From positions 1-54,098 of the forward strand of contig CASERY010000063.1 in the NCBI GenBank assembly GCA_949290385.1: a DNA stretch of 54,098 nt, written 5' to 3'. Positions 8,200 to 43,305 of the stretch are shown here, one piece after another. Under the pieces are notes generated by a model, which saw only the letters and a program-made list of their open reading frames with translations, ran no database searches and was not told the DNA's origin. Source of the stretch: an uncultured bacterium. GTDB lineage: Bacteria > Verrucomicrobiota > Lentisphaeria > Victivallales > UBA1829. Numbering within the stretch: position 1 is the first letter of the stretch; the number at the start of each line of letters is the position of its first letter. The translations under genes and the position numbers were made by a program.

Positions 8200-8410
8200 A
8201 GCATCAGGGTGGGGGAAAAATAGACCATTTTTTAACGGATATTCAGACCTTTTTGCCGGACAGGAATCGTGGTATGACAGAGTGGCATGGCAGAGCTTGA
8301 TCCTATTAACAAAGCTTTTTCCCCGTGCGGACAGAATAAAGGACCGCTTTATTTTCAGAACTGTTTGGAAACCTTGTTTCCAGCTCGGGACAGTAGAAAA
8401 ATCCTTCGGC

Positions 8411-8438
8411 TTGCAATCAGAATGAAATTCGTTATATT
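8411..8438 (+). promoter_or_regulatory. Promoter of secreted hydrolase operon
   Basis: TTGCAA (8411-8416), a 16-base spacer, then TATATT (8433-8438), 91 bases upstream of the ATG at 8530. Confidence 0.5.
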
Positions 8439-8529
8439 GGAGCAAATGCAGGGCTGTTTTTTTGCCGGCTTTTTGCCGCAGGAAATCCTTCCAGTCCTTG
8501 GTTTGATAGAATTACCGGAGAAAAATTGT

Positions 8530-10371
8530 ATGAAAAAATGCCGATGGTTGGAATTATAGGTGATGCTTTCCTTGAGTTTTACCGGACTGAGCACGCTTCA
8601 CGGTGCAGATCCGGCAGAATCGGGAAGACGTCAGGTGTACCCCTTGGATGCAGGAAAAGTCCGGATCAATGCGGAGCTTGTGGCCGGAGATCTGAAGAAT
8701 ATCCCGGAGAAGGATCAGCATATGCCGGCAGTCTGGTATATTATTCCTGCATTAAGCAGTATTAAGCGTCTTCCGGATGCTTATCCAGAGGATGGGGAAG
8801 TTCTGGGAGATTTGACCTTTATTGCAGCCAGAGGCGAATATGAACCGGCATCTTTTGTGCTGTATCCGCAGCAGGATGTGGATCGGCTGACATTTACGGT
8901 GTCTGATCTGGTGCACGAAAAAAGCGCAGAGAAAATCCCGGCTGACTGTCTAGATTTGAAGCTTGTCAAGATCTGGTATCAGCAGGGAACCGCCTGGTAT
9001 TCCTATTTCGGGGACAATTTCGGACGGGTGCTCTGTCCGGAACTTCTGGTCAATGATGAAAATCTCATTTATGTGGACCCGGAAACCCGGGATAATTATG
9101 TGCGCTACAGCAATGCGGACGGATCCGAGTCTTATGTCTGGAACAGCGCCAGTTTCATGCTTACAGATTACAAGAGAGATGCACAGGTCTGCACCGCCAT
9201 GGTTCAGGATGCGCCGCAGCTGCAAAGCGTTGTGCTGAACAGGAATGAATGGAAACAGTTCATGTGCACTCTTCATGTCCCGCAGGATGCTGGTGAAGGA
9301 CTTTACCATGGGACTATCCGGATTCAGGCAGATGGTATTCCGGCAGGAGAAATTCCTGTTCTTGTCCGGGTTCTTCCCTTTTCTCTGCCGGTACCGAAAA
9401 CCAATTACGATCTGGACAAGGAATTCTATCTGACTTTTTATGGAGCAGGCACAGGCAATCCCAAGGTTTTGAAGAACCTTGCCGCGCATAACATGCGTCA
9501 GCCCCTGTGGTTTCCCCTGATAGATCCGCTGAATCCGGACAGAATGCAGCAATATGCCGATGCCGGACGCAAGGCGGGGCTTCCTTTAAAACCGGCTTTT
9601 GCCGCAGGCCCGGGAGCCGGGATCGAAAAAGATCTGGAAGACTATGAGGCGCGTGTTCGAAAATAGGCGGATGTGTCAATGGAAATCTATGGACACTCCG
9701 ATATTTACAACTATGCCATTGACGAGGGTGGACTTTCGATTGTCAAGGCGGAACGCCCCACATGGATGACCGCGCACAAGGGCGGATAGAAAGTCATGGC
9801 ATCGACAACATCAAAACCCCGCTATCTTTTTGCGCTGGATTTTATGAATATGCCATGTGCACCGGATGAAATCCGTGCCCGGGAAATCGCCCGGTTCCAC
9901 AGTTCGAATCCGGATGGAATCGCATGCTGGTATGCTACACCGCATACAGGTCCGGAAAACCCGGATTATATGCGAAGAACCCATGGGATTTATGCCTACT
10001 TGTTCAATTACGACGGGAGTGCCAATTACTGTCTGTACCGTGCGGACTGGAACGACTGGGCGGGACCCTATGAGCCTTTTCTGAGAGGTCTGCTCTGCGT
10101 GTATGCCACACGGGATTCCGTCCTGGATACGCTCGCCTGGGAGGGAATCCGGGAGGGACTGGATGACGTGCGTTATGCCACACTGCTCAAGGAAAAGGCC
10201 ATGGAGGCACTGAAGAGTCCGTCTTCTGAGGTGTACTTCACCGGGCGCGAGGCCTTGAATTTCATTGCTTATTTCGATCCGTACAGAGACAGCGCAGATC
10301 TGTTCCGCATGGAATGTATTGACTGGATTCTCAAACTGGATGAAGCGCTGAAAGGAGACAAAACAAAATGA
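8530..10371 (+). CDS. Secreted GH123/DUF4091-type glycoside hydrolase with three in-frame UAGs
   Basis: Reading TAG as sense gives one 613-residue protein ending in TGA. In-frame TAGs lie at 8557, 9664 and 9787 (codons 10, 379, 420). The ATG at 8530 opens a signal peptide (MKKCRWLEL, UAG, then VMLSLSFTGLSTLHGADPA), and a GGAG site precedes it. The C-terminal region matches DUF4091, found in GH123 beta-N-acetylgalactosaminidases and relatives (CVYATRDSVLDTLAWEGIR, then EGLDDVRYATLL). The probable catalytic Asp-Glu pair (D398, E399 in YAIDEGG) lies between the second and third TAG, so no functional enzyme exists unless both are translated. Substrate is unproven. The stop overlaps the ATG of the next gene (ATGA), forming an operon with the CBM9-like protein. 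Confidence 0.8.
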
Positions 10372-12869
10372 TGCAGAATAAAAGAAACACTGTTCTGTTT
10401 GGATAGATGGCCCTGGCTTTACTCAGCTGCGGACCGTGTTGTTTTTCAGAAGGACATTATGGGTTGTCTGCTGCAGAGATGTCCGTTCAGGAAAAAGATG
10501 CCTCCGGAACGGCTGCATCCGCATCGGATGAAAAGACCGAAAAGCTTTCTCCCGAGGATTTCCAGAAAAGACTTGCTGCCATACGCGAACTGCGCCGGAA
10601 TGGATCCATGGACGCTTATGTCCGTGCTGCTTTGGAACTTGCAGCGAATCCGGATTTGGATAATACGCAACAGATTTCAATCCTGAACGAGACGCTGAAT
10701 GGTGCCGTTGAAAAAAAGAATACGGCTGCTTTGAATCAGATAGGTGATGCTGTTTTAAATCTGTCTGCTGAGAATCGTGCGTTCCTGGGAGGAGAATTTA
10801 TCCAGAAGGCATCTGAATATGCACTGGAACAGTAGGACCGGATCTATGCAGCCACTTCAGAAGAATGGGATGTTGTTCGTCTGCCGGGCCTGGTTTCAGT
10901 TCTTGCCCGTACTTCTGTAATGAAGAACGAACCGGAGCTTTTTAAAAAGTATTATGCTCTTCTTCATGATATGACCCCGCCGGAAAACAGTGATCCGGAA
11001 AGCGCAGCCTAGCTGGAGACACAGAAAGCGGCAGAACTTCAGAAGACTCTTGAAGTGGTTGCATCTAAAGATTTTTCTTTGGCGGAGGAACTTGCCCGCG
11101 ATCCTGTTTTTGCCGGACAGCCGCTGGAAACCTTGCAGTCTCTGGCTTCCGGCGCCGTGAAAGGGGAAAACAGAAAGGCTTTGGATTCTGTTCTTGAAAA
11201 AATTTCCCAGAGCCATGATCCTGAAAAAATTCCTGAGATGATTCGTCTTGTCAACGGTCCGCTAACCAAAACGCCGCTTCTCCGGGAAAAAATTCTGCAT
11301 GAACTGCTGGAGCGGGAAAAGGAATATCCTGCGGAACAGAGAATTGAACTGTGGGCTTCTCTCCGGCCTGTTCTACCCGGGGAGCTCGGATTCGGCCTGG
11401 AGGATGAAAGCGGTCTTTATGAAACCTACAAAGCGGCTTCGGAAAGAATCTTTCAGATTGCCGCTGAGAATCCGGAGATGACCGATTCCATTGCCGTCTA
11501 CCGGAAGAATCTTATGGATGCTGCATGGCGTTTCGGAGATTATACCATGCTGGAGAAGCTCCTGCCGGAACTGCGCAGGGAGATGTCAGAGGATCCTGAA
11601 GTTCAGCGCATGGCTTTGATCCATGCCGTATGGAAGAACGATCTTGAGGATGCAGACAAGATTCTGCAGGGATCCACATTTCATTCTTAGAAGGCGGATT
11701 CTCTTGAATACCTCGCCTGGCAGGGACTTCTGCTGTATCTGAGAAATCAGGCGGATAAGTTGGATGAGAAACTCTATGGAGCGGACTTCCGAAATGTTTC
11801 CCTGAAAGAGCGTTTTGCCCTGCGTAGAAAAATCAGTCGTTTTGCGGTAATGACGCGCCATTATCCGGTCAGCCGGGAGATCGAAAAGGAAATTATGCGT
11901 GATTTCCTGAAATCTCCCGGAACAGATATGCATTATATGGTAACTTATCAGGCAGATGCCCCTCAGTCCGCCGCGGCCTGGGTCATGACTCCAGCCTATT
12001 CCGACTGGAACAGCATGGAGACCAGAATGTATCCTGTGAATCAGTATTTCCAGAGTGCTGCGCGGGATGAGGCCCTGCTTAAAGATGTTCCCGTACAGAA
12101 AGCCAATGACGCATATAAGACGGGCCTTTCTATTGTTTATGATCTGGAAGGAGTCCATATTTACATTCGGGCGGAGGATCCGGATGTGGCAGACGCACGG
12201 CTGGGAAAAAAGAAGTCCCGGGAGTTTGAGATGTTTATTCGACCTGGACCGGATTCGGTTTACAATTGGTTTTATTTGTCGGATGTGCCCGAGTGTCCGG
12301 ATACAGGTGGCACTGTGGAGTGGAGTTCTCCGGGCAGAGATCACAAAATGACTTATGACTATTTAAGAAAAGACGGCTGTTTCACCGAAACCGGCTATGC
12401 TTTTCATGTCTTGATCCCGTGGGAGATGTATGCGGGAAAACTGCCTTCTCCGGACCGCCAGTGGACTCTGGGATGCATGGGCAATGGCATGACGCTTAAT
12501 GGAAATGTCCATGAACTGAGCCGTGCGCTGAAAATAGATTTTCAGTTTTCTCCGGAGACATTGATTGCTATTCAGAAGAATACTGCGCTGAAAGCATACT
12601 ATGCTTATAAAAAATATTCTACGTCTCCATATGAAATGATTCAGATATGGGAATCGGATACTGATATTGGAGATCCGGACTTTTACCAGGAAAAACTGGA
12701 AAGTCTGATTCAGGAGCTGGATGAAGCCGGAGAAAGGCTTGAAAAAACGGAGGAATCTGCGGAAATCGATGAAATATACCGGAAGTATGTCCCGTTGTGG
12801 CAGAATATCCGTTATGAAGCTGCAGACCGCAGGGTCCATTATTTGCGCGACCGGTTCCTTGGACGGTGA
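10368..12869 (+). CDS. Secreted helical-repeat protein with C-terminal CBM9-like domain, four in-frame UAGs
   Basis: The 834-codon frame ends in TGA and contains TAGs at 10404, 10833, 11010 and 11688 (codons 13, 156, 215, 441). A short basic N-terminus (MMQNKRNTVLFG), a UAG, and a hydrophobic stretch with cysteines (MALALLSCGPCC) form a signal or lipoprotein-type peptide. Residues about 40-460 are helical and Ala/Glu/Leu-rich, resembling a tetratricopeptide-like solenoid. From about 520 to 750 strands such as YDLEGVHIYIRAEDPDV and GYAFHVLIPWEMYAG, with FEMFIRPGP between them, resemble CBM9/DOMON carbohydrate-binding domains of exported PVC-group proteins. A charged helical tail follows. ATG 10368 overlaps the hydrolase stop, with AAAGGAGA upstream. 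A role in carbohydrate binding beside the hydrolase is inferred. Confidence 0.75.
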
Positions 12870-19547: not shown

Positions 19548-20576
19548 TTAAATGCTCAGAAGAAGCTGTTCTGTCTCCTCCCAGGAAATGCAGCCGTCCG
19601 TAATGGAACAGTCATAGGCAGGCCTCAGTCCCGGAATCAGTTTCTGGTTGCCTTCCTTCAGATAGCTTTCCAGCATGATTCCGCACAGATTCAGACAGCC
19701 GTTTTTGCGTTGGCGCATGACTTCATGGAATACTGTACTCTGCTGCCGGTAATCCTTCCGGGAATTGCCATGGCTGCAGTCCACCACAAGATGCGTGTTC
19801 AAATGGTGCTGCTGGAGCGCAAGGACGGCGGCTTTCACTGCTTCTTCTGTATAGTTGACTCCGCTGGCACCTCCGCGGAGAACCAGATGGGCGGAAGGAT
19901 TGCCTTTGGTCCGGAAGATGCCCGTATGGCCGTTTTCGAGAACTCCAATGTAACTGTGGGAGGACTGGACTGTAATCATGGCATTGATGGCGCTTTCGAG
20001 ATCCCCTGAAGTGCTGTTTTTGAACCCGACAGCCATAGGCAGTCCACTGGCAAGCTGCCGGTGCACGGGGGATTCCACCGTGCGTGCGCCGATGCCTCCC
20101 CAGCAGATCATTTCGGAAAGGTAGGCGGATGTTACAGGATCCAGAATCTCAGCAGCTGCAGGAAGACCTGCCTGAAGAACTTCCAGAAGAATCTTTCTTG
20201 CGAGGTGGATTCCAGCCGGAATCTGACAGGAACCGTCCAGCATGGGATCATAGATGAGACCTTTCCAGCCGAGGGCTGTTCTGGGTTTTTCAAAGTAAAC
20301 ACGCATCAGGATATAGGCTTTATCCTGGATTTTATCCGCGAGTTTCTTGAGTCTGGAGGCATATTCCAGAGCGCCCTGTTCACTGTGGACCGAGCAGGGG
20401 CCGGCAATGACCAGAAGACGTTTGTCCCGTCCATGGATAATGTCCTTGACGGTTCTGCGCTGGAGCCTGATCTGTTCCTGAAGCTCCGGAGAGAGCGGAA
20501 GCTCCCTGCAGACTGTCCCGGGGGACGGAAGAAGCATTTCAGACTGAAGGTTGATTTTCTGATCATTCTGCAGCAT
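19548..20576 (-). CDS. aroG: 3-deoxy-7-phosphoheptulonate synthase, class I-alpha type
   Basis: The product (342 aa) is the E. coli AroF/G/H type of DAHP synthase. Landmarks are LLVIAGPCSVHSEQGALEYA, MRVYFEKPRTALGWKG, WGGIGARTVESPVHRQLASG, VGFKNSTSGD, LRGGASGVNY, and VVDCSHGNSRKDY, covering the substrate phosphate and metal sites. The ATG lies inside the end of trpA (14-base overlap), so it is the terminal gene of the trp operon and may be the Trp-regulated isozyme, in contrast to the Phe/Tyr-attenuated aroF. That regulatory division is inference. The stop is TAA. Confidence 0.95.
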   Translation of the reverse strand: MLQNDQKINLQSEMLLPSPGTVCRELPLSPELQEQIRLQRRTVKDIIHGRDKRLLVIAGPCSVHSEQGALEYASRLKKLADKIQDKAYILMRVYFEKPRTALGWKGLIYDPMLDGSCQIPAGIHLARKILLEVLQAGLPAAAEILDPVTSAYLSEMICWGGIGARTVESPVHRQLASGLPMAVGFKNSTSGDLESAINAMITVQSSHSYIGVLENGHTGIFRTKGNPSAHLVLRGGASGVNYTEEAVKAAVLALQQHHLNTHLVVDCSHGNSRKDYRQQSTVFHEVMRQRKNGCLNLCGIMLESYLKEGNQKLIPGLRPAYDCSITDGCISWEETEQLLLSI

Positions 20577-21345
20577 TCAGACTCTCCCGGATTTCTTTGA
20601 CAAAGGCTCCTTCACTGCCGTCGCCGCAACGTTTGACAAAGGCGGATCCTACGATCACGCCATCTGCAAAACTGCCCACATAATGAGCTGTTTTTCCGTC
20701 GGCAATGCCGAATCCCACTGCGATGGGGATGCTGGAGAGCTTCTTGAGGTCAGAGACTTGCTGTTTGAGTTCATGGGGAAGTTCATGGCGGGCACCGGTG
20801 ATGCCGCGGACAGAAACATAATACACAAAACCGTCTGCATTTTTCAGAATGCGTTTAGCCCGTTCTTCCGGAGTTGCCGGTGTGATCAGAGGAATCAGGC
20901 AGAGGCCGTTTTCCCGGCAGGGCGTGAGCATTTCAGGTTGTTCCTCCAGGGGAAGATCCACAGCAAGAATGCCGTCGATGCCTGCGTCGGAAGCATCCTT
21001 GCATACGCGTTGTTCGCCGTAAGCGTACAGAACATTCATGTAGCTGAAAAGGATAAGGCCGGTACGGGGGAACTTCTGGTGGATTTCTGCGGCCAGCTTT
21101 AAGATGTCGGCCAGGCAAGTGCCGTTCTAAATGGCTGTCTGGGAGGCTTTGCAGATGACGGGTCCGTCGGCCATGGGATCGGAAAATGGAACACCCAGTT
21201 CAATAATGTCTGCTCCGTTCTGAATGGCGGCTTCCACTGCTTTTCTGCTGTCTTCAAGGGTGGGATAGCCAAGACTGACAAAAAAGATGCAGGCGGCACG
21301 TTTTTCCTGTCTGCACTGTTGAAAAATTTCCTGAAGATGGTTCAT
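20563..21345 (-). CDS. trpA: Tryptophan synthase alpha chain with one in-frame UAG
   Basis: Translating a TAG at codon 73 (21127-21129) yields a full 260-residue TrpA, which cleaves indoleglycerol phosphate to indole. The first part contains the catalytic Glu region ([18 protein letters not shown]), then [14 protein letters not shown]. The second part contains the catalytic Asp region ([14 protein letters not shown]), VRGITGAR, and the phosphate-binding GFGIADGKT and VIVGSAFVK. Homologues have a variable polar residue (K, E, Q, A) at the TAG position, so Gln fits. The ATG overlaps the trpB TGA (ATGA). The stop is TGA, overlapping aroG. Confidence 0.93.
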
Positions 21346-22520
21346 GATCTGATTCCTTTTTTGTAATTTCTGATGCTGTCCATATCTTTGTCGCCGCGTC
21401 CGGAGAGATTGACAATAATCAGGTCTTCCGGTCCGTAATTCCGGGCATTTTTCATGGCCTGGGCAAGTGCATGGGAGCTTTCCAGTGCCGGAATAATGCC
21501 TTCCTGACGGGCCAGAATTTCAAAAGCGGCCACGGCTTCGTCATCACAGATGACGTCGTAATGCGCTCTGCCGGTATCGGCCAGCAGGGCATGTTCCGGT
21601 CCGACGCCCGGATAATCGAGTCCAGCTGAAATGGAATGCGTTTCCATGATCTGGCCATTGGGATCCTGCAGGAGATAGGTTTTGGCTCCGTGGAGGATGC
21701 CGGGTTTTCCGCCGTTGATGCTGGCTGCATGTTTGCCGGAGGCAATGCCGCACCCGCCGGCTTCTACACCGACCAGGCGCACGGACGGGTCATTTTCAAA
21801 ACCGGAAAAGATGCCGATGGCATTGCTGCCGCCTCCGACGCAGGCAATGACTTCCCGGGGAAGTTTACCGAACTGTTCCAGGCATTGGCGTCTGGCTTCC
21901 TTGCCGATGACAGACTGAAAATCCTTTACAATCATGGGATAGGGATAGGGTCCGGCCGCCGTGCCAATGAGGTAGAAGGTATCCCGGGAACAGGCTGTCC
22001 ATTCCCGGATGGCTTCATTCATGGCGTCTTTCAATGTGCAGGATCCTTCCTTGACGGAACGGACTTTTGCACCGAGAATTTCCATGCGTTCCACGTTGGG
22101 CGCCTGGCGCTCCACGTCCACGGATCCCATGAAAACTTCGCATTCGAGGCCCAGCAGGGCTGCCGCTGTAGCTGAGGCTACGCCGTGCTGGCCGGCTCCG
22201 GTTTCAGCAATAATGCGTTTTTTGCCCATGCGACGTGCCAGAAGGGCCTGTCCCAGAGCGTTGTTGATTTTATGGGCGCCAGTGTGGTTCAGGTCTTCGC
22301 GTTTGAGCAGAATCCTGGCGCCGGAGCAGTAACGGGTCAGACGTTTGGCTTCATAGAGGGGGCTTTCACGTCCGACGTAGTTTTTGAGGAGATCCTCAAA
22401 TTCAGCGAGAAAGGCCGGATCGTTTTTGGCTTCAGTGTAAGCGAGTTCAAGTTCCTGAAGAGCGGGCATGAGCGTTTCCGCAATATATTGTCCGCCGTAA
22501 ATACCGTAGTGTGTGTTCAT
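21342..22520 (-). CDS. trpB: Tryptophan synthase beta chain
   Basis: The 392-residue PLP enzyme joins indole and serine. The PLP lysine lies in THTGAHKIN-type context ([18 protein letters not shown]), followed by [11 protein letters not shown], the phosphate-binding glycine loop [12 protein letters not shown], and LEAG-type C-terminal PLP contacts with LSGRGDKD. This is a standard TrpB1 of full length that partners TrpA by channelling indole. The start overlaps the trpF stop and the stop overlaps trpA, so translation is coupled through the operon. No in-frame TAG. Confidence 0.97.
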
Positions 22521-23137
22521 TGGATACTCCTGACTGTATGAATCATTTTCTTTATGACTGCAAGATTTTTGATGCCGGGTGAAATTTCTGTGCCGCTTCC
22601 AGCATCAATGCCGCAGATGCCGGGAACGCGGAGGGCTTCTTCCAGATTTTCCAGACGGATCCCTCCGGCAAGCATGACCGGTCTGATCTGCGCCAGGCGC
22701 CGGACTAGAGACCAGTTGCATGTCCTGCCGGAACCTCCGGATTCCGCATCGGCAAGAAAACGCTCGCAGCGGTACTGTTCTGCGAAGGCGAGGTCCTGCG
22801 GAACGCGCAGGGGAAGAGCCTTCCAGACACGCACCTTTTCTGCATACGAACAGAGCATGGAAGGATCCTCTCTGCCGTGAAACTGAATAACATCCGGATG
22901 AATGCGTTCGAGAATCTCCTCCAGAAGGTCCTGCGACGGATCCATGACAACACAGACCTTTCCGGTGCTTCCCGGAAGGTTTTCAAAGAGTTCACATGCC
23001 TTGTCCACAGAAACCGCCCTGGGGGATGAGGAAACCAGTATAACGCCTGCATAATCTGCGCCGTTTTCTGCAGCGGAAAGAATATCCTCCCGACGCGTGA
23101 ATCCGCAGATTTTCAACTCCAGATGTTTGTTCAGCAT
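22517..23137 (-). CDS. trpF: Phosphoribosylanthranilate isomerase
   Basis: The product is a 206-residue TIM barrel performing the Amadori rearrangement of phosphoribosylanthranilate. The catalytic Cys lies in [11 protein letters not shown] near the N-terminus. Later come [21 protein letters not shown], the phosphate site [14 protein letters not shown], and the catalytic Asp in GIDAGSGTE. The start overlaps the end of trpC by 7 bases and the TGA overlaps the trpB start. The length is typical. No TAG. Confidence 0.95.
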
Positions 23138-23907
23138 AGAGACCTCAGTGCTTTCCCGGGGGACCCGCTTTTCATGAGAGTTTCGCCGATCAGAAATCCT
23201 TTTGCTCCAGCTGCACGGAGACGGAGGATGTCTTCTTTAGTGACAATGGCGCTTTCAGCCACGGCAATTCTGTCTTTCGGAACGAGGCGGATCAGAGACT
23301 CGGAGAGATCCAGCGAGGTGTGGAAATCTCTGAGGTCCCTGGCGTTGACGCCAAGAAGATCCACGCTGGTCTCCAGCAGCACTTCCAGCTCTTTCTCGTG
23401 ATGGCTTTCTCCCAGAACCTCCAGCTGCAGAGAGTGAGCCAGTTCTGTCAGATCCCGTATCTGGGCAGGTTCCAGCATGGCGGCAATCAGAAGAATGGCC
23501 GATGCCCCGCCGACTTTTGCCTGATAAATCTGATACGGATCGAAGATGAAATCCTTGCGCAGAACAGGGATGGAAACGTGCCGGGCAATTTCCCTGAGAT
23601 AGTCGAATTTTCCCAGAAAAAACTGTTCTTCAGTGAGAACGGAAAGCGCGGCAGCCCCGTTTGCTTCGAGTTCTTCCGCATATGCCAGATACGGGAAGTT
23701 CTACTAGATGATCCCTCTGGATGGAGAGGCTTTCTTGAGTTCGGCAATGATTCCTGAGGAGTTTTCTTTCAGGAGGGCCTGTTTCAAGGAGGGTTTCTGC
23801 CGGATGCTTCTGCACTGTTCACGAAGTTCGGAAAGGGGTAGAAGATGTTTTTCCTGTTTCAGACGGATTTTTTTTGCATCCACAATTTTCTGAAGAATAT
23901 CAATCAT
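23131..23907 (-). CDS. trpC: Indole-3-glycerol phosphate synthase with tandem UAG UAG
   Basis: The frame is 258 codons long and contains two adjacent TAGs at 23701-23706 (codons 68-69). Before them is the substrate- and catalysis-bearing ELKKASPSRGII. After them come NFPYLAYAEELEANGAAALS, VLRKDFIFDPYQIYQAK, LLIAAML, the catalytic Glu region LEVLGESHHEKEL, GVNARDL, and AESAIVTKED. Without readthrough all catalytic residues after the SPSRG loop are lost, yet the downstream half is fully conserved. Homologues have R/Q/N then D/E/P/Q at these positions. The ATG (23905-23907) overlaps the trpD terminus, and the trpF start overlaps the TGA. Confidence 0.94.
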
Positions 23908-25539: not shown

Positions 25540-27024
25540 TCAGAGATCCAGATTGTCTGCCGCGAGCCGGATAGCCTGGAACATGGCGGCGGCCTTGTTC
25601 AGTGTTTCTTCGTATTCTTTTTTCGGCACGGAGTCGTACACAATGCCGGCGCCCGCCTGAATGAAAAGGGTATCGTGACGGATTTCCACGGTCCGGATGG
25701 TGATCTACATATCCATGTTGCCGTCATAGCTGAAATAGCCGACTGCGCCGCCGTAGACGCCGCGGGCGCTTTTTTCCAGGTCATGAATGAGTTCCATGGC
25801 ACGGACCTTCGGGGCTCCGGAGAGGGTTCCAGCAGGCAGTGTGGTGCGCAGGAGGTCCAGGGCATCCTGATCCTTTTTGAGCTGGGCCTCTATTTCGCTG
25901 ACAAGATGCATGACGTGGGAATAACGTTCCACTTTCATAAAATCCTTTACCTGAACGCTTGCAGGCTCTGCTGTGCGGCCCAGATCATTGCGGCCCAGGT
26001 CTACGAGCATCAGATGTTCTGCGCGTTCCTTTTCATCATTGAGCAGTTCCTGTTCCAGAACGGCGTCCTGTTCGGGAGTTTTTCCACGTCTGCGGGTGCC
26101 GGCAATGGGGCGCAGAGAGGATATGCCGTCCGTCAGCTTGACCATGGTCTCGGGGGAGGAGCCGACCAGACATTCAGAACCAAGCTTCAGATAGAAGGTA
26201 TAGGGGGATGGATTGACTTGCCGGAGTGCACGGTAGATGGTCAGCGGCGAGGCGGGCAGTTTCGCTGAAAAACGCTGGGAAAGTACAATCTGGATAACGT
26301 CGCCTGCAATAATGTGCTGTTTGGCTTTTTCAACCATGGAACAGAACTCGTCGCAGGTAAGCTCCGCTTTCAGTTCACACGGATGCTTTTGCCCATGAGG
26401 GAGCATTTCTGTGGAAACAGGCCGGGAAATGCGCTGTTTGAGTTTTTCTATTTTCTGCTCTGCTTCCGCGTAGGCTTGTGCCGGGTTTTTGATCTGATCC
26501 CGGTGAACCATGACCATGACTTTCATGGTATGACGCAGGTTGTCAAATGCGATCATTTCATCGGTGAGCATGAAGCGGCAGACCGGATTTTCAGGATGGG
26601 TTTTCGGTTCCGGAAGTTCCTCAAAAAGATTGACGGTTTCATAGGAGAAGAATCCTGCTGCGCCTCCGGCAAGGGGAGGTACTCCGGGAACCTGGGCAAT
26701 TTTTCCTTTATGAATGAATTTCCGGAGTGCGTTTACCGGGTTTCCTTCAAATGGAAGTTCCTGCATGTGATCCGCTGTCGGCCCGAAAAAGGCTTTGCGG
26801 CCGCGCACTTCAAAAATGCCGTAGGGATTCACACCAAGAAAAGAATAACGTCCGATACGTTCTCCTCCTTCCACACTTTCCAGCAGAAAAACATTTTCAT
26901 CTTCCGAAAAACGCGTGAGAATGGAAACAGGTGTTTCCATATCGGCAAGCATTTCCGAGTAGACCGGGATCAGGTCAGCATTCCGGGCGAGTTTCTCAAA
27001 TTCCTTGAAATCTGGTTTCAACAT
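25540..27024 (-). CDS. trpE: Anthranilate synthase component I with one in-frame UAG
   Basis: The 494-residue enzyme converts chorismate to anthranilate. Landmarks are the N-terminal Trp feedback element ([18 protein letters not shown]), [71 protein letters not shown] and [19 protein letters not shown] then occurs at 25705-25707 (codon 440), followed by [11 protein letters not shown] and the conserved C-terminal [17 protein letters not shown], ending in TGA. The active-site IxIRT segment lies just after the TAG, so readthrough is required. It is the first gene of the trp-aroG operon. No convincing Trp-rich leader was found upstream. Confidence 0.95.
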
Positions 27025-27612: not shown

Positions 27613-30600
27613 TTATTGGACTACTTTCCACTGAGAATCGATTTTTTTCAGATGCAGCGTTTGAACACTGACACGGCCGGCCTCGTCGGTGATTTCCAGT
27701 CGGACTTCCGCTTCTGTTCCGTTTTCCGAAAGTGTTTCGGAGAGCAGCTTCACCTGAAAATGGCTGAAGGTATTAGCCATTTCCTTTTTTACACTGGGAG
27801 GCATATTCCGGATGCTGTCAAGGAGTTCTGCGGCAAGGGCTTCATCAAAGAATTCGGCAATGGCGTTTTCGTCGTAACGGTAGAGAGCATTTTGTGCATC
27901 CCGGGCGGTTTCACCAGGGGTGGGGGAAATGCCGGAGGAGGGGACAGACTTTGCGGATGAAGGACTGTCCTTGAAAATTTCATCAAGATCCAGATAATGA
28001 ATGGTTCCGAGACCGTCCAGATCTTTTTCCTGAATCGTGGAGAGATCCTAAATAATCAGAATGATCTGGGGTTTTCCTGCGGTATGTTCCGCAGAGAGAT
28101 TCAGAAATTTTCCGGAGTCAATGGAGGGTAGTTCCTCGTAGATGATTTCGCGGCTTTCACGGTTCAGTCCAAGACGCTGGAGAGTCCGCCAGACAAAATA
28201 ACGGTCTTCCTCTTTAAGTTTGCTGGTCCTGCACTGACGGAGAATTTTGTCTTTGGCGGCATCGAAGAAGGATTCGTCCATGGGAAGACGGTCCATGAGC
28301 TGAATGAGCCCGTCGAGTGCTGTCCGGAGTTTGTCCGGTTGGGTGCTGATGTAGCCCATGGCAAAGGAATAGTTGTCCAGCGTAATATGCGGACAAATAT
28401 AGCCCTACGAAGCTACATAGCCCAATCCCTGTTTTTCCCTGAGTTCCCGCATGGCTGACTGCTGCGCATAGGCATTGTAAAGGGCTGAAAATGCCAGAAG
28501 CGGCGGATTGCAGATTTCATCCGGACGCAGCAGCATGACTGTGGCATTGGAAGCGGAAGGATAATTTACAAGATAAATCTGGTTCTCTTTCGGGGGGACA
28601 ATGGTATAGTGAACCGCTTCCGGGAAAGATTTGACTGGATCGGTATTTGCATAGAGCGGCGCAAGTCCCTCCTGCAGATCAGACAGAACCGATTCTGCCG
28701 GTCCGTAGTAGACAATATCGTGCAGATAGGAAGGCAGTTCATGAATCAGATCTGTGAGTTCCTGCGGATTTGTCTGCAGGATTTCATCCCGGCTGAGACG
28801 GTGGGTGAAATAATTGTCCGGAGATCCGTAAAGCGCTCTGGCAACGGCGGCATTCTGAATGGAGGATGGGTCTTTTTTCTGATCGGAAAGATTTTTACAG
28901 CAGGCTTCGGCAAATCCCCGGTATGCTTCCGGATCATTTTGCGCATGAAGAATCAGTCCACAGAAAAGGGGCAGGGCGTCCTTGAAGTTCTGCTGAAGAC
29001 CGGAAATGCTCAGACATACGCTGTTTTCAGAAACAGAAAAGTCAAACGAGAGTGCCTTGGCATATTCCGCAAGGCTCAGATCATTGGCCGAAAGAGAGTC
29101 TGTGCCGAGATACCGCAGATAGCCTAGCGCCAGTTCGAGTTTTTTCTCATTCAGCGTGCCGAACGGGAAATAGAAGGAAAGTTTGAAGCGGTTGTTCTGC
29201 GTGTTTTTGAAGGAATACACAAGAACGGATTTTTCCCGATCCCCATAAAGACGCTCTCCGGAAATCCCTTTGGAAAAGTCCGTAAAGACTGGATCCGGAT
29301 CCGGAAGAACCGGCATCGCGGCAATTTCCTTTGCGTACGAAGAGAGTTCGGAGGGAATGGAAACAGGGGTGATGTGCGGTTTTTCCGCTTTCACCTTGTG
29401 TTTCGGTTCCCCATTGCGCTTATAGACAATGGCATAGTTCTGATAGTTTTCCCGGACGAAATCTGAAAGCATTTCACGGGTAATGTGTCCGGCGCATTCC
29501 GTCTGATTCAGGGCGTCGGCAATGGAAATCCCCTCGATGAAATTGCTGACCATGCCTACGATATTGCCCCGGTTTTCTGCAGAAAACTCCATATCCTTTT
29601 TCATGTTGTTGCCGACGGCTTCCAGAAGAATGCCGTCCGGATCAAAATCGCCCTGTGCTACTTTCTGGAGTTCTGCAAGAAGAAGATCCTTTGCCTCTTC
29701 AAGAGATTGGCCCTCTTTGGGGGAAACCTAAAATACATGGTAAATGGAATCACGCTGGACCTGGGGAAATGATCCGGCATCCTGCACTTTCTGCGGTCGG
29801 AGGAGGTCTTCATCAAGAATGCCGCATTTGCCGTTAAGCAGTACGGCAGAAAGCACGCGCATGAGAACTTTGTTCCGGGGGGTTGGATCCAGTCGGAATC
29901 CTATATACAGAAATTCCGGTTCCGGACCGAAAATTTCTGCGGCAGTTTCCATCTGCGTGAGCACAGGCATCCCTTCAGATGCCTGCGGACGCCTGGAGGT
30001 ATTTTTTGTGCAGACAGCGCCTTCCTGATTCCGGAGTTTGCCGAAAGTTTTTTCCACCAGATCTACAGTCTGTTCAAAGTCCAGGTCCCCGCAGAGGATG
30101 AGCGCCATATTGCAGGGATTGTAGTATTCGCGGAAAAATGCCTGAATGTCCTTCATGGACGGCGCCTTCAGGTGTTCCGGGTATCCGATGACGGGACGGC
30201 CGTAGGGATGGCTGCCGTACAGAAGTTTCAGCAGGGCGAAATAGGCTGAACGGGAGTCGGAATCCTGCCCGAGATTGAATTCCTCATAGACGGTCTCAAG
30301 TTCCGTGTGGAAACGGCGGAGCGCAATGGAACTGAATCGTTCAGCTTCCAGAGTCAGAAAGCGTTCCAGCTGGTTGGATGGAATATCGGTCATATAGACG
30401 GTTTCATCAAAAGAGGTCCAGGCATTGGTTCCGGAGCCGCCCATCATATTGTTGAGTGTCCAGTATTCGTTATTGGAATACTGGGAGGCCTCTGCGGAGA
30501 GACGGTCGATTTCAGCGTAAAGTTCCTTGCGTTTTTCCGGATCCTTTTCAGCTCTGTGCTGTTCATAGAGATCGGCAATTCTGTCCAGAAGGGGTTTTTC

Positions 30601-31044
30601 CTTCTCCCAGTTCAGAGATCCGATTTTGTCATTGCCTTTGAACATCATATGTTCAAAGTAATGGGCAAGACCTGTGGATTTTTCCGATTCATCGGCAGAG
30701 CCCGCGCGCACCGCTGTAAAAACTTTGATTCTAGGCTCAGTATCGCATTTGGATAAATAGAGTGTAAGACCGTTTTTCAGGTGATAAACTCTGGTTTTGA
30801 ATGGGTCTCCTGGAACATATTCGTAGGAACGGTTTTTTGCATCAGTTCTTGTCTCCGTTTTGAAGACATCCGGACAGGGGAGATTTGCGGACGTGCTCAG
30901 GCTGTTCTCTGTCTGTTCCCCGCACGGCTGGATGGATTCAGCTTTCTCAGATGGTTCCTCTGCAAAAGCCCGGACGGAGAAAAGAGGACTGCTCAGAATG
31001 GAGAACAGAAGGCCCTATAAAAAAACAGAAGGTAAAAATTTCAT
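27613..31044 (-). CDS. Secreted M16 zinc metallopeptidase (two-lobed) with four in-frame UAGs
   Basis: With TAG read as sense this is one 1143-residue protein ending in TAA. TAG codons are 10 (31015), 439 (29728), 880 (28405) and 999 (28048). A signal peptide (MKFLPSVFL, UAG, then GLLFSILSSPLFSVRAFA) starts it. The inverzincin motif HYFEH, with the third zinc ligand Glu in ELETVYEEFNLG, marks the active lobe. The inactive second lobe has REKQGLGYVAS just before the third TAG, the classic Arg/Tyr substrate motif. The last 110 residues (AIAEFFDEALAAELLDSI and following strands) resemble an NTF2/DUF4878-like domain. Such enzymes degrade peptides in the periplasm (PqqL-like). The promoter lies at 31116-31143 and a terminator follows at 27365-27406. 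Confidence 0.9.
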
Positions 31045-31115
31045 TGCTGCACTGCTCCTGAATAAATGAGATGAATCCTGCATACAGATGGCACAATAAG
31101 GCTGTCATGAAGGAT

Positions 31116-35961: not shown

Positions 35962-36047
35962 TGGTGCCGACGATAGGATTTGAACCTACACCTCCGTGAA
36001 GAGACTGCGACCTGAACGCAGCGCGTCTGCCGTTCCGCCACGTCGGC
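35962..36047 (-). tRNA. tRNA-Leu (CAG), copy 1
   Basis: An 86-base class II tRNA with acceptor stem GCCGACG/CGTCGGC, long variable arm (TCTCTTCACGGAGG region), anticodon CAG (complement of 36012-36014) and encoded CCA. Identical to the copy at 36164. Confidence 0.93.
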
Positions 36048-36163: not shown

Positions 36164-36249
36164 TGGTGCCGACGATAGGATTTGAACCTACACCTCCGTG
36201 AAGAGACTGCGACCTGAACGCAGCGCGTCTGCCGTTCCGCCACGTCGGC
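36164..36249 (-). tRNA. tRNA-Leu (CAG), copy 2
   Basis: Identical in all 86 positions to the copy starting at 35962, 202 bases away, with largely different spacer sequence. Probably a recent tandem duplication. Confidence 0.93.
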
Positions 36250-36432: not shown

Positions 36433-38163
36433 ATGGATAAAAAAATATGGAAATGTGCGTCTGACGGAAAAGAAAATATCATTGACGAACTGATTCGGAA
36501 TAAATTCCTTCCGCGCCCGGTTGCTTTTTATCTGGCTGCCAGGGGAATTACTCAGAAAGAAGTGGATTCTTATTTTAACGCCTCTTTCTCAGACTTGTCG
36601 GATCCGTTCAGGTTTCCAGGCATGGAAACTGCCGTCAAACGTTTATGGAAGGCAATCCGGAACCGTGAACGTATTCTGATCCACGGAGATTATGATACGG
36701 ACGGAATTACTGCAACTGCACTTCTTGCATGGGTGCTGGAAAAAAATGGAGCTACAGTATCCTCCTTTCTGCCGCATCGTTTTGACGATGGATACGGTTT
36801 TACCCCGGATTCCCTCGCAAAAGCACTCGAAGCCGCCGGAGGCAGCTGCGGGGTGCTCGTAACCGTGGACTGTGGCATCAACAGCGCAGAAGCTGTCAGC
36901 GAGGCGGGAGCCAGAGGAATTGACGTGATCATTACCGATCACCATGAGCCCGCCAATGAACTTCCGGATGCACTGGCCATTGTGAATCCGAAAGTTCATG
37001 AATGCGTTTCAGATTTGAGAAATCTTTCAGGAGTAGGTGTAGCCTTTAAGTTGGCTCATGCGTTTATTCTTTATGGAAGGACGCATAACGAAGGCGGCTA
37101 TACCACGGATTTGCAGGATGTGCTGGACTACGTGGCCCTTGGAACGATTGCAGATATTGTGCCGATTCTGGGGGAGAACAGAATTCTGGTTAAGTACGGT
37201 ATGGAAATTCTACGCAGACAACTGCGTCCAGGTGTGCGTGCCCTGATTGAGGTGGCTCATGTAAATTCCAGAATGAATCCTTCCGATATTACCTTTAAAC
37301 TGGCTCCCCGGCTGAATGCCGCAGGCCGTCTGGGCAACGCCGTAAGCGCACTCCAGCTGATGACCGCGAGCAAAATCGTGGATGCATATCATTATGCAGA
37401 TATGCTGGAAAAATTCAATCAGAAGCGTCAGGCCAAGGAACAGGAGATTTTTCAGGAAGCCAAGAATCAGGTGGAATCTGATCCTGCATTTGCTTCATCC
37501 ATGACCATTCTTGCGGCAGGTGAGGACTGGCATCAGGGGGTAATCGGCATTGTAGCTTCACGCTTTGCCCGGGATTATAACCGTCCGGCCATTGTGTTGA
37601 CGATTCAAGGGGAAGAGGCCCATGGGTCCGGCCGCAGTGCAGGGGGAGTGAACCTGATCAAAATTCTGAGCAAATGCTCTCATCTGCTGACCCGCTACGG
37701 GGGACACCCTATGGCGGTAGGGCTGGGTCTGCATAAAAGTCAGATTCCTGCTTTTTAGAAGGCTTTTGAGGAATGTGTTCGGGAAGAGACCCGGCCTGCG
37801 GATCTGGTGGACAGCATCAGTTATGATGGTGTCGTGAATATCGCAGATCTGGGGGATGACTTTTTCAACTACTACGATGCACTGGGACCTTTCGGCCATG
37901 GCAATCCCCAGCCTATGTACCGGTTGAATCAGGTGGAGGTGATCCGCACATTCCCGATCAAGTCAGGACATACCAAAGGAATTCTGCGGGACAGCCGCGG
38001 GGATACCTGCGACTTTATTGCATTTAATATGACAATTGCACCTCATACGAAATGGGATGTCATTGCTGCGCCCCATATCAATGAATATTACGGGGAAAAA
38101 CGCAGACAGCTCCAGATTGCCGATTTCCGCACTTCAGGTCTGGATGATACTCCGTCTGCATGA
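36433..38163 (+). CDS. recJ: Single-stranded-DNA-specific exonuclease RecJ with one in-frame UAG
   Basis: The 576-residue 5'-3' exonuclease acts in recombination and mismatch repair. Motif I HGDYDTDGITAT, the DHH motif IITDHHEP, and the DHHA1 elements GSGRSAGGVNL and GGHPMAVGL are intact. A TAG at 37756-37758 (codon 442) follows HKSQIPAF; the frame then continues KAFEECV and through the C-terminal OB-fold (ALGPFGHGNPQPMY), ending in TGA at the usual length. E. coli RecJ has FQQRF here, so Gln at the TAG is the simplest reading. The downstream lipoprotein gene begins within the stop region. Confidence 0.94.
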
Positions 38164-40049: not shown

Positions 40050-40138
40050 ATTAGGCAGGCGGTGAAAAGTTGTATTCGCAGCTGTTTGCCGGAAAAATTT
40101 CCCCCCTGAAGTCATATAGGAGTTTTAAAAAAAAGACT

Positions 40139-41929
40139 ATGGGAAAAATTTATGAGTTCGCAAAGCCGTACTTGGGATTGTGTCTGGTATCCGGAGTCGC
40201 GCTTTTGATCTTCACCTTTTTCGGCATCCTGACGCCGTGGTATCTGAAAGTGATTATTGATACCTGTCTGCCGTCAGGAAATCAGGGTTTTTTGATCCTG
40301 ATGCTGCTGGCAATCCTTCTGACTTACTGCCTCCGGGAAATTTTCTTTTATATAAGTCATTATCTGCTGTACTATACAGGAGCAAGGACGCTGTTTGGCC
40401 TTCGCATCAAACTGTTCAAGCATCTGCAGACGCTTTCTCTGAGGTTTTATCAGGAGTACAGAACCGGTAAGCTGATCTCCAATATCCTCACAGACGTGAA
40501 TATGCTCAACGGGCTGATTTCATCTGTTCTTGTGAACCTGGTGATCCATTTATTTACGATTCTATGCATTCTGGTGGCGCTGTTCATGATGAGCCCGAAA
40601 CTTTCATTGCTTTCCATTGTGATGATTGTGTTTCAGTTCGTAAATTTCACCTACTTCAGAGGAAAAATTCAGAAAAACTAGAAGCATTTACGTGAAATGA
40701 TGTCGGAAGTTTCTGCAAGCCTTACGGAAACCATTAACGGCATCAAAGTGGTGAAGTCTTTCGGAAAAGAAAGGTTTGAGAATCGGTCTTTTGTAGAAAA
40801 ACTGCGTCCGGTATTTGATGTCAATATGACGGTATGCATGAACAGCGTATATTTGTGGATGATTGCTGAAGCCATTAATATCATTTGTATTGTTATTGTG
40901 CTGGGAGTCGGCGGAAGCATGGTAATCAGACATCAGATGAACATTGGTGAACTGGTCGCATATTATACCTATTTTTCCATGCTGACGGGCCCCATTTCAT
41001 CCCTGAGCAGCCTTACAACAACAATCAGTGAGGGCATGGTTTCTGTGGAGCGTCTGAGCAAACTGCTGAATGCCATTCCGGAGATTCGGGAATAGGAAAA
41101 TCCCAAGGAACTTCGGAATGCCAAGGGGCATTTGCGCTTTGACCACGTTTCCTTCGGGTATGAAAAAGACAAGCTGGTTCTGAAGGACTTTACTCTGGAT
41201 GTGCCCCCGGGTAAAAAAGTGGCTCTTGTAGGACCTTCCGGAAGTGGAAAGTCTACAATAGCCAGTCTGCTGATGCGCTTTTTTGACGTGAGTTCGGGAG
41301 CCATCAGCATCGATGGAATCAATGTCAAGGAAATGAGTCTCAATTCTCTGCGAAACAATGTGGGTATCGTGCTTCAGGAGTCGTTCCTTTTCAGCGGTAC
41401 CATTGAGGATAATATCCGGTACGGCCGGGAGGAGGCAACACATGAGGAGGTCGTGGCGGCAGCAAAGATGGCCAATGCCCATGACTTCATTATGGATTCT
41501 CCAAAGGGGTATTATTCCCAGGTGGGAGAAAACGGTGTCATGCTTTCCGGCGGCCAGAAACAGCGTCTGGCCATTGCACGTGCGATTCTGAAAAATCCTT
41601 CGGTGCTGGTGCTTGACGAAGCTACATCCGCGCTGGATACCATGTCGGAGGCGGTTGTGCAGGAGGCTCTTGATAAATTGATGGAAAACCGTACAACGGT
41701 GATTATTGCTCATCGTCTGTCCACGGTCCGCAATTCCGACTTGATCTGCGTCTTGAAAGACGGTGTTGTGGAAGAGCAGGGTTCTCATGCGGAACTGCTG
41801 ATGAAGGACGGCCTGTACCGGGAACTGTATGCTATGCAGTTGCGGGATCACAATAACGTGAAAAGCGATCTTTTTTCGGTAGGGGAATCCTCCGGTCTGC
41901 ATGGGTCGGCTGCCTCAACAAAAGGGTGA
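40139..41929 (+). CDS. ABC exporter, fused membrane and ATPase domains, two in-frame UAGs
   Basis: The frame is 597 codons with TAGs at 40679 (codon 181) and 41093 (codon 319), ending in TGA. Residues about 15-300 form six membrane helices of an MsbA/HlyB-type exporter. The first TAG lies in the long cytoplasmic loop (GKIQKN, UAG, KHLREMMSEVSASL), a polar position in homologues. The second joins membrane and ATPase domains. The ATPase has Walker A GPSGSGKST (365-373), Q-loop VLQESFLFSG, signature LSGGQKQR, Walker B VLVLDEATSALD and switch His in IIAHRLST. Neither half works without readthrough. ATG 40139 is preferred over TTG 40070. The adaptor gene follows. Confidence 0.92.
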
Positions 41930-41988
41930 GCCGGAAAAAATTGCAGCAAGGTCAATAAGATCAAAAAATACTACAGGAATTGAGTCAT

Positions 41989-43305
41989 ATGCATGAGCAT
42001 GCCCGATATCGTTTAAGATCCAGTCTTAAAGTTTTTATTCTGCTGATTGTGATTGCGCTTCTGATGATTCCGCTGGCCGGGATTCTTCTGTTTGTGTTTG
42101 AAGTGGAGGATTCCGTGATCTGTGAGGGAGAAGTAAGTCCGGAGGAGGAATATGAGATCGTTTCCCATTTGAGCGGCCGCCTGATGTCCCTGAATGTCCA
42201 CACGGGACAGAAAGTCTCCAAAGGAGATGTCCTGGCAGTCATTGATTCCACGGAGTTTGAAAACAGTCTGATTACGTTGCAGTCTGAAATCCGTCAGCTT
42301 GAAGCGGAACAGTCTGTAGCCCAGGTTGCCCTGGCGAACGAGAAAGCCGATCCTCTTCCACAGGATCTGTGGCACGCAGAAACCAATCTCCAGGAATGCC
42401 GGGAAAAAGAAGCCAAAGCCAAAGACAAGCTGGAACGTTACACCCGGTTGCTGGAACAGAATGCCGTGGCAAAGGTGGATCTTGAAAATATTGAACTGGA
42501 ATATATTGAAGCGGAAGCCGCCTTATAGCGAGCCCAGGAGAATTACGATCACGTTCAAAACGGTCTTGCTGAGCGCAATATCCTGAAAGCCCAGAAGGAT
42601 CTGGAACTTGTAACAGCTCATCTGGAGAGTAAGAAATCCCTGATTCCAATGTATGAACGAAAAATTCAGGACTGTACGTTGCGTGCTCCTGCAGATGGGG
42701 TTATTGTCAAAATCCCGTGCCGGAACTCCATGTATGTTACAGAAGGTGAGACTGCCGTCGTGATGGTGGATGGACAGGAAACCATGGTCTGGGCTTTTGT
42801 GGATGAGGCCTTTATCCGAAAAGTGAAAGTGGGGCAGTCCGCACTGGTCCGGAGCGAGGTTTACACGCATTTGCAGTATGGTAGCTTTGATGCCGAGGTT
42901 GTCAAAATTTCAGCAGTTCCCATCAAGGATGCCTCTGGGGCAGTGAAATATCCGGTGCGTCTGCATCTGGATACGGACAACTTTGATATTAAATACGGAT
43001 CCAAAGTGACTGTCACAATTATTATCGGCAATACGCCGGCTATTTATACACTGCTGAATATTTCTGCAGAGGATGAAATTATTTAGAGACGCCTGGAAAA
43101 TCTCCGGAAGAAATATGAAAGGAAATCAGCAGAGGCTACCGAAAAGGCCCGGGAACTGGAAAAAAGTCAGTCCCGTGATGAAAATGAAAGCGCTCGTGAT
43201 TCCGAAGATGAATACAGTTCGGGAAAAATTACTTCTGCCTCAGATCTGGAGGATGAATATCCATTAGATTCTCCTAGTTCTGAGCCGGAATATAAAGGAT
43301 ATTGA
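41989..43305 (+). CDS. HlyD-family membrane fusion protein with two in-frame UAGs
   Basis: Reading TAG as sense gives 438 residues ending in TGA. One N-terminal transmembrane helix (FILLIVIALLMIPLAGILLF) anchors it in the inner membrane. A lipoyl half-motif (VSHLSGRLMSLNVHTGQKV) is followed by a coiled-coil hairpin interrupted by a TAG at 42526 (codon 180; EAEAAL, UAG, RAQENYDH). The second lipoyl half is CTLRAPADGVIVKIP, followed by beta-barrel strands. A second TAG at 43084 (codon 366) precedes a 72-residue charged tail (RRLENLRKKYE, then Asp/Glu/Ser-rich), unusual for the family. The partner is the ABC exporter upstream. ATG 41989 has AGGA ahead. Substrate unknown. Confidence 0.9.

Follow-up and report, generated by a model that had tools for sequence, protein, structure and literature searches.

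The window, a stretch of 54,098 nucleotides, is one contig of an incomplete draft metagenome assembly, here designated G000, that comprises 2.68 Mb in 168 contigs at ~49% GC and is 78.5% complete with 2.0% contamination. The gene for indole-3-glycerol phosphate synthase, trpC, sits within an intact trp operon in this window and contains two adjoining UAG codons (Table 1). Positions 23701-23706 of the plus strand read ctacta, which is TAGTAG on the minus strand, and the two consecutive in-frame UAG codons that a preliminary description had placed in trpC, without giving the strand, are thereby confirmed on the minus strand. With UAG read as sense, the trpC reading frame starts with an ATG at 23905-23907, closes with a TGA at 23131-23133, encodes 258 amino acids and contains no internal TAA or TGA; the product reads ...ASPSRGII-UAG-UAG-NFPYLAY... 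around the pair. It matches the Pfam IGPS domain over its full length (1-254 of 254, 258 bits) and has homologues in the PDB with E values down to 9e-52. The possibility of a second intact trpC, raised in the preliminary description, was followed up by searching the genome (78.5% complete), and only the one IGPS gene was found.

Table 1. Genes and codons of interest in the window, with their internal UAG codons.
Feature	Positions	Strand	Internal UAG	Basis
GH123-N-like protein	8287..10371	+	three	weak Pfam match
Protein without assigned function	10368..12869	+	four	ORF
trpA	20563..21345	-	one (codon 73, 21127-21129)	Pfam Trp_syntA
trpB	21342..22520	-	zero	ORF; 70-77% identity to Kiritimatiellota relatives
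trpC, indole-3-glycerol phosphate synthase	23131..23907	-	two	Pfam IGPS; sole copy
UAG UAG pair, TrpC codons 68-69	23704-23706 and 23701-23703	-		sequence and frame translation
trpE	25540..27024	-	one (codon 440, 25705-25707)	Pfam; Ala in 3/3 relatives
M16 peptidase-like protein	27613..31083	-	four	Pfam
recJ	36433..38163	+	one (codon 442)	Pfam DHH/DHHA1/RecJ_OB
ABC exporter	40070..41929	+	two	Pfam
HlyD-type membrane fusion protein	41980..43305	+	two	Pfam

The nearest named relatives of TrpB come from the RUG12186 genome ("uncultured bacterium") and from a goat-reticulum Kiritimatiellae MAG, and on this account the host is read as Kiritimatiellota-like and as probably gut-associated. Two adjoining tRNA-Leu(CAG) genes are also present in the window (35962-36047 and 36164-36249, minus strand); the Asp, Arg-ACG and Glu-UUC tRNAs of the genome likewise occur as tandem duplicates.

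The use of UAG outside trpC was evaluated by comparing ~0.62 Mb of G000, including the window, to ~1.6 Mb of a relative from the same family, G016. Unfiltered six-frame comparison resulted in false TGA and TAA counts from antisense reading frames, which in G000 were removed by keeping only homologous stretches in which identity reached 45% (n = 50). The 19,844 codons of these stretches included 25 in-frame TAG, no TAA and no TGA. In the reverse comparison there was no TAG in 30,173 codons of G016, together with 8 TGA and 1 TAA that are most likely matches to antisense reading frames. Among 58 homologue-backed genes of G000 (25,013 codons), 42 internal TAG were counted, or 1.7 per 1000 codons, distributed over 25 genes, and the stop codons of homologue-backed genes were UGA (30) and UAA (26). 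Single-copy core genes with internal TAG include rpoC, secY, recB, recC and the gene for RF2. The recC and recB genes are adjacent (L147:604-8025, plus strand) and carry two and one internal UAG, respectively, and the RF2 gene (L157:4416-5510, minus strand) carries one at codon 42, meaning that synthesis of the remaining release factor itself requires decoding of UAG. The N-terminal region of UvrC (L255:14521-16014, minus strand) is 89% identical to that of the family member G006 and ~80% identical to those of other members, possibly on account of horizontal transfer.

UAG is thus, with near certainty, a sense codon across the G000 genome. An ordinary stop codon, with trpC and similar genes being pseudogenes or the TAGs being sequencing errors, might be suspected in a draft metagenome assembly, but this is exceedingly improbable and is refuted by the count of 25 TAG to 0 TAA to 0 TGA, since decay or error would bring TAA and TGA too, while rpoC, secY and RF2 are single core genes and the rest of the TrpC frame is intact. 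Because many genes, among them rpoC, secY, recB and that for RF2, have UAG in frame, because RF1 was not found and because there is no second trpC, UAG must be decoded routinely and not leaked through. The claim of dedicated decoding in place of leaky readthrough therefore stands; the argument on which the preliminary description had based it, namely that the codons lie back to back, does not. At the genome-wide TAG frequency, ~0.07 adjacent pairs would be expected among the 58 homologue-backed genes and ~0.67 in all sampled reading frames. The adjacency in trpC is accordingly about what frequent use of TAG brings with it, a by-product of that use and not special in itself; it is the use of TAG as such that lies far outside chance.

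RF1 terminates translation at UAG. A search of the 78% complete assembly did not find RF1. Among the other members of the family, 33 of 35 genomes have the factor, and so do 108 of the 110 genomes sampled across the order, with 107 matches exceeding the curated cut-off. Three further genomes, G008, G021 and G046 (69-78% complete), are also without a strong RF1 match; rpoC of G046 contains zero TAG, and no match to rpoC was obtained from G008 or G021. RF2 is present in G000 with its SPF and GGQ motifs. We infer that RF1 has truly been lost from the genome, with its absence from an incomplete assembly counting as support and not as proof.

In order to determine which amino acid UAG specifies, loci of family relatives were aligned to the UAG sites, and 41 sites with good local conservation were scored for candidate residues using the replacement profiles that these alignments gave for the sense codons of G000 itself. 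Alanine was the residue that relatives most frequently had opposite UAG at the 41 sites (~40%) and gave the highest log-likelihood (-107.7), followed by serine (-123.5), glutamine (-129.8), glutamate (-130.7) and lysine (-134.3). It was best in 96% of gene bootstraps, and the ranking was stable at all filters tried, with alanine best in 64% of bootstraps under the strictest (19 sites). At 6 of the 21 UAG sites with at least three relatives (29%) the facing alanine was invariant, as in FucI (5/5 relatives), Ugd (4/4), NnrD (4/4), TrpE (3/3) and MlaE (3/3), and the best PDB match to FucI (4c22) has alanine at the UAG position too. By the same measure, invariant alanine faced 45% of the genome's own alanine codons, 3% of its serine codons and 0-1% of its Gln, Glu, Lys, Arg and Thr codons. 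As alanine is not one base from UAG, this pattern goes beyond what mutation alone would give. At the trpA site alanine is found in the closest relative and is the commonest residue across 74 diverse bacterial loci (26/74).

The sites are not uniform, however, and are less alanine-like than real alanine codons; ~30-45% of them are unlike old alanine positions. A mixture of 55% alanine (bootstrap 36-67%) with glutamate, glutamine and lysine and a few others fitted better than pure alanine by 12.8 log units, whereas mixtures fitted to real codons in control draws gained at most 7.1. The trpC pair is among the sites unlike old alanine positions, with relatives having arginine (10/10) and then mostly glutamate at the two codons. 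A conserved charged residue also faces UAG in L160 (arginine, 6/6), and in a HyfF-like subunit (L257:10259-11737, minus strand) UAG faces lysine in the only relative aligned, a site that appears awkward for a reading of UAG as alanine. Since GAG, CAG and AAG are each one base from UAG, the glutamate, glutamine and lysine component fits a recent arrival of UAG at tolerant positions.

This component would also fit ambiguous decoding, in which UAG is read partly as alanine and partly as glutamate, glutamine or lysine, or by more than one tRNA, for example through near-cognate decoding of a codon left unassigned after RF1 loss. Besides the two-component pattern, such decoding would be in line with the lack of a cognate tRNA among the 46 found in the incomplete assembly. 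Near-cognate reading does not predict a majority of alanine, however, given that alanine is no one-base neighbour of UAG; recent mutation from the one-step sources GAG, CAG and AAG explains the second component; and slow decoding would be costly in the core genes where UAG occurs. We regard ambiguous decoding as rather unlikely, although it is the rival that keeps most of its ground.

Serine, or another small residue, is second-best by likelihood and its codon UCG is one step from UAG. It nevertheless falls 16 log units short of alanine over the 41 sites, and the genome's own serine codons face invariant alanine at 3% as compared to 29% for UAG, which makes this assignment improbable. Where phages and nuclear genomes have reassigned UAG, the usual outcome is glutamine (PMC9523058, PMC8629427), as in NCBI code 15 of recoded gut phages. 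Glutamine would be inserted by a tRNA-Gln(CUA), as the preliminary description had supposed, and is represented in the mixture. Its likelihood is ~22 log units below that of alanine on the 41 sites, and invariant alanine faces none of 314 own glutamine codons as opposed to 6 of 21 UAG sites. The tRNA-Gln anticodons found are CUG and UUG only, with no CUA tRNA seen. Glutamine was accordingly rejected on residue likelihood and we give it a slim chance, slightly below that of serine.

All 46 tRNAs identified in the assembly could be assigned and none had a CUA anticodon, either by ARAGORN or by pattern search, in what is a 78% complete assembly; in particular, a tRNA-Ala(CUA) with a G3:U70 pair was not present. 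As tRNA-Ile and several serine and alanine isoacceptors are missing from the set as well, this absence is weak evidence. Of the pattern matches to a CUA tRNA, one on contig C100 proved to be tRNA-Arg(UCU) and the remaining one was no tRNA, and C154 opens with a partial tRNA that was assigned as tRNA-Glu(UUC). Many phage contigs of IMG/VR (L324-L371) carry CUA tRNAs, some of them two in a row, and were not tied to the host of G000. The other sense meaning that UAG is known to take naturally in bacteria is pyrrolysine (PMC8318568), and the missing ~22% of the genome could contain pyl genes, but the search for PylS in the 78% complete assembly returned nothing above cut-off (best match 20 bits at a cut-off of 178 bits), on which ground pyrrolysine throughout the proteome was rejected; ARAGORN, which reports CUA tRNAs as Pyl, and the pattern search both gave no such tRNA, and UAG sites favor alanine and not lysine, so that this reading is very improbable.

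Alanine is probably the main meaning of UAG in G000, judging by the residues that face it in relatives. In the code we propose, RF1 would have been lost, so that termination would fall to RF2, at UAA and UGA, and a tRNA-Ala with its anticodon changed to CUA would read UAG. Alanyl-tRNA synthetase recognizes the G3:U70 pair of the acceptor stem and not the anticodon, and because of this a tRNA-Ala(CUA) would continue to receive alanine, which makes the route an easy one. Under such a code the trpC pair would stand for Ala-Ala, and TrpC would carry these residues instead of Arg-Glu directly after its SPSRG loop. On balance we lean towards a full reassignment to alanine, through loss of RF1 and gain of tRNA-Ala(CUA), that may be at a recent stage, with many UAG codons still at former glutamate, lysine, glutamine and arginine positions.

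If true, the reassignment would be the first from a stop to alanine in bacteria. Found in a genome of ordinary size and ~49% GC, it would show that stop codon reassignment is possible without genome reduction or extreme AT bias, and engineered E. coli lacking RF1 would have its counterpart in nature. The mixed pattern of UAG sites may make the spread of a new codon meaning directly testable. In practical terms, standard annotation would cut ~40% of the genes of G000.

The literature searched, with most subscription papers outside its reach, contained no report of a bacterium in which UAG serves generally as a sense codon. Known bacterial reassignments include UGA to tryptophan in Mycoplasma, UGA to glycine in Gracilibacteria and changes of CGA and CGG (PMC8629427), and according to a 2021 screen of more than 250,000 genomes all those known earlier concerned UGA, while the new codes of the screen itself all concerned arginine codons (PMC8629427). 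These changes are genome-wide like that of G000, with loss of a release factor in the UGA cases, but the latter involve another stop codon and release factor and tiny, AT-rich genomes, in contrast to the multi-megabase genome of ~49% GC described here. Pyrrolysine-using bacteria such as deltaproteobacteria (PMC8318568) share in-frame UAG with G000, which differs in that no PylS was found, UAG extends across housekeeping genes and the sites are alanine-like. Phages using NCBI code 15, for example crAss-like phages (PMC9523058), resemble G000 in their genome-wide in-frame UAG and gut-type setting; their UAG specifies glutamine, however, whereas G000 is a cellular genome with a bacterial operon and bacterial core genes in which the residue is apparently not glutamine. 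The nearest precedent is provided by the mitochondria of Hydrodictyaceae and Neochloris green algae (PMC6821328), organelles whose few genes and mutated mtRF1a contrast with a 2.7-Mb bacterial chromosome from which RF1 is apparently absent. No common origin is implied, but in these mitochondria UAG is a sense codon for alanine and termination proceeds without it, as proposed here for G000.
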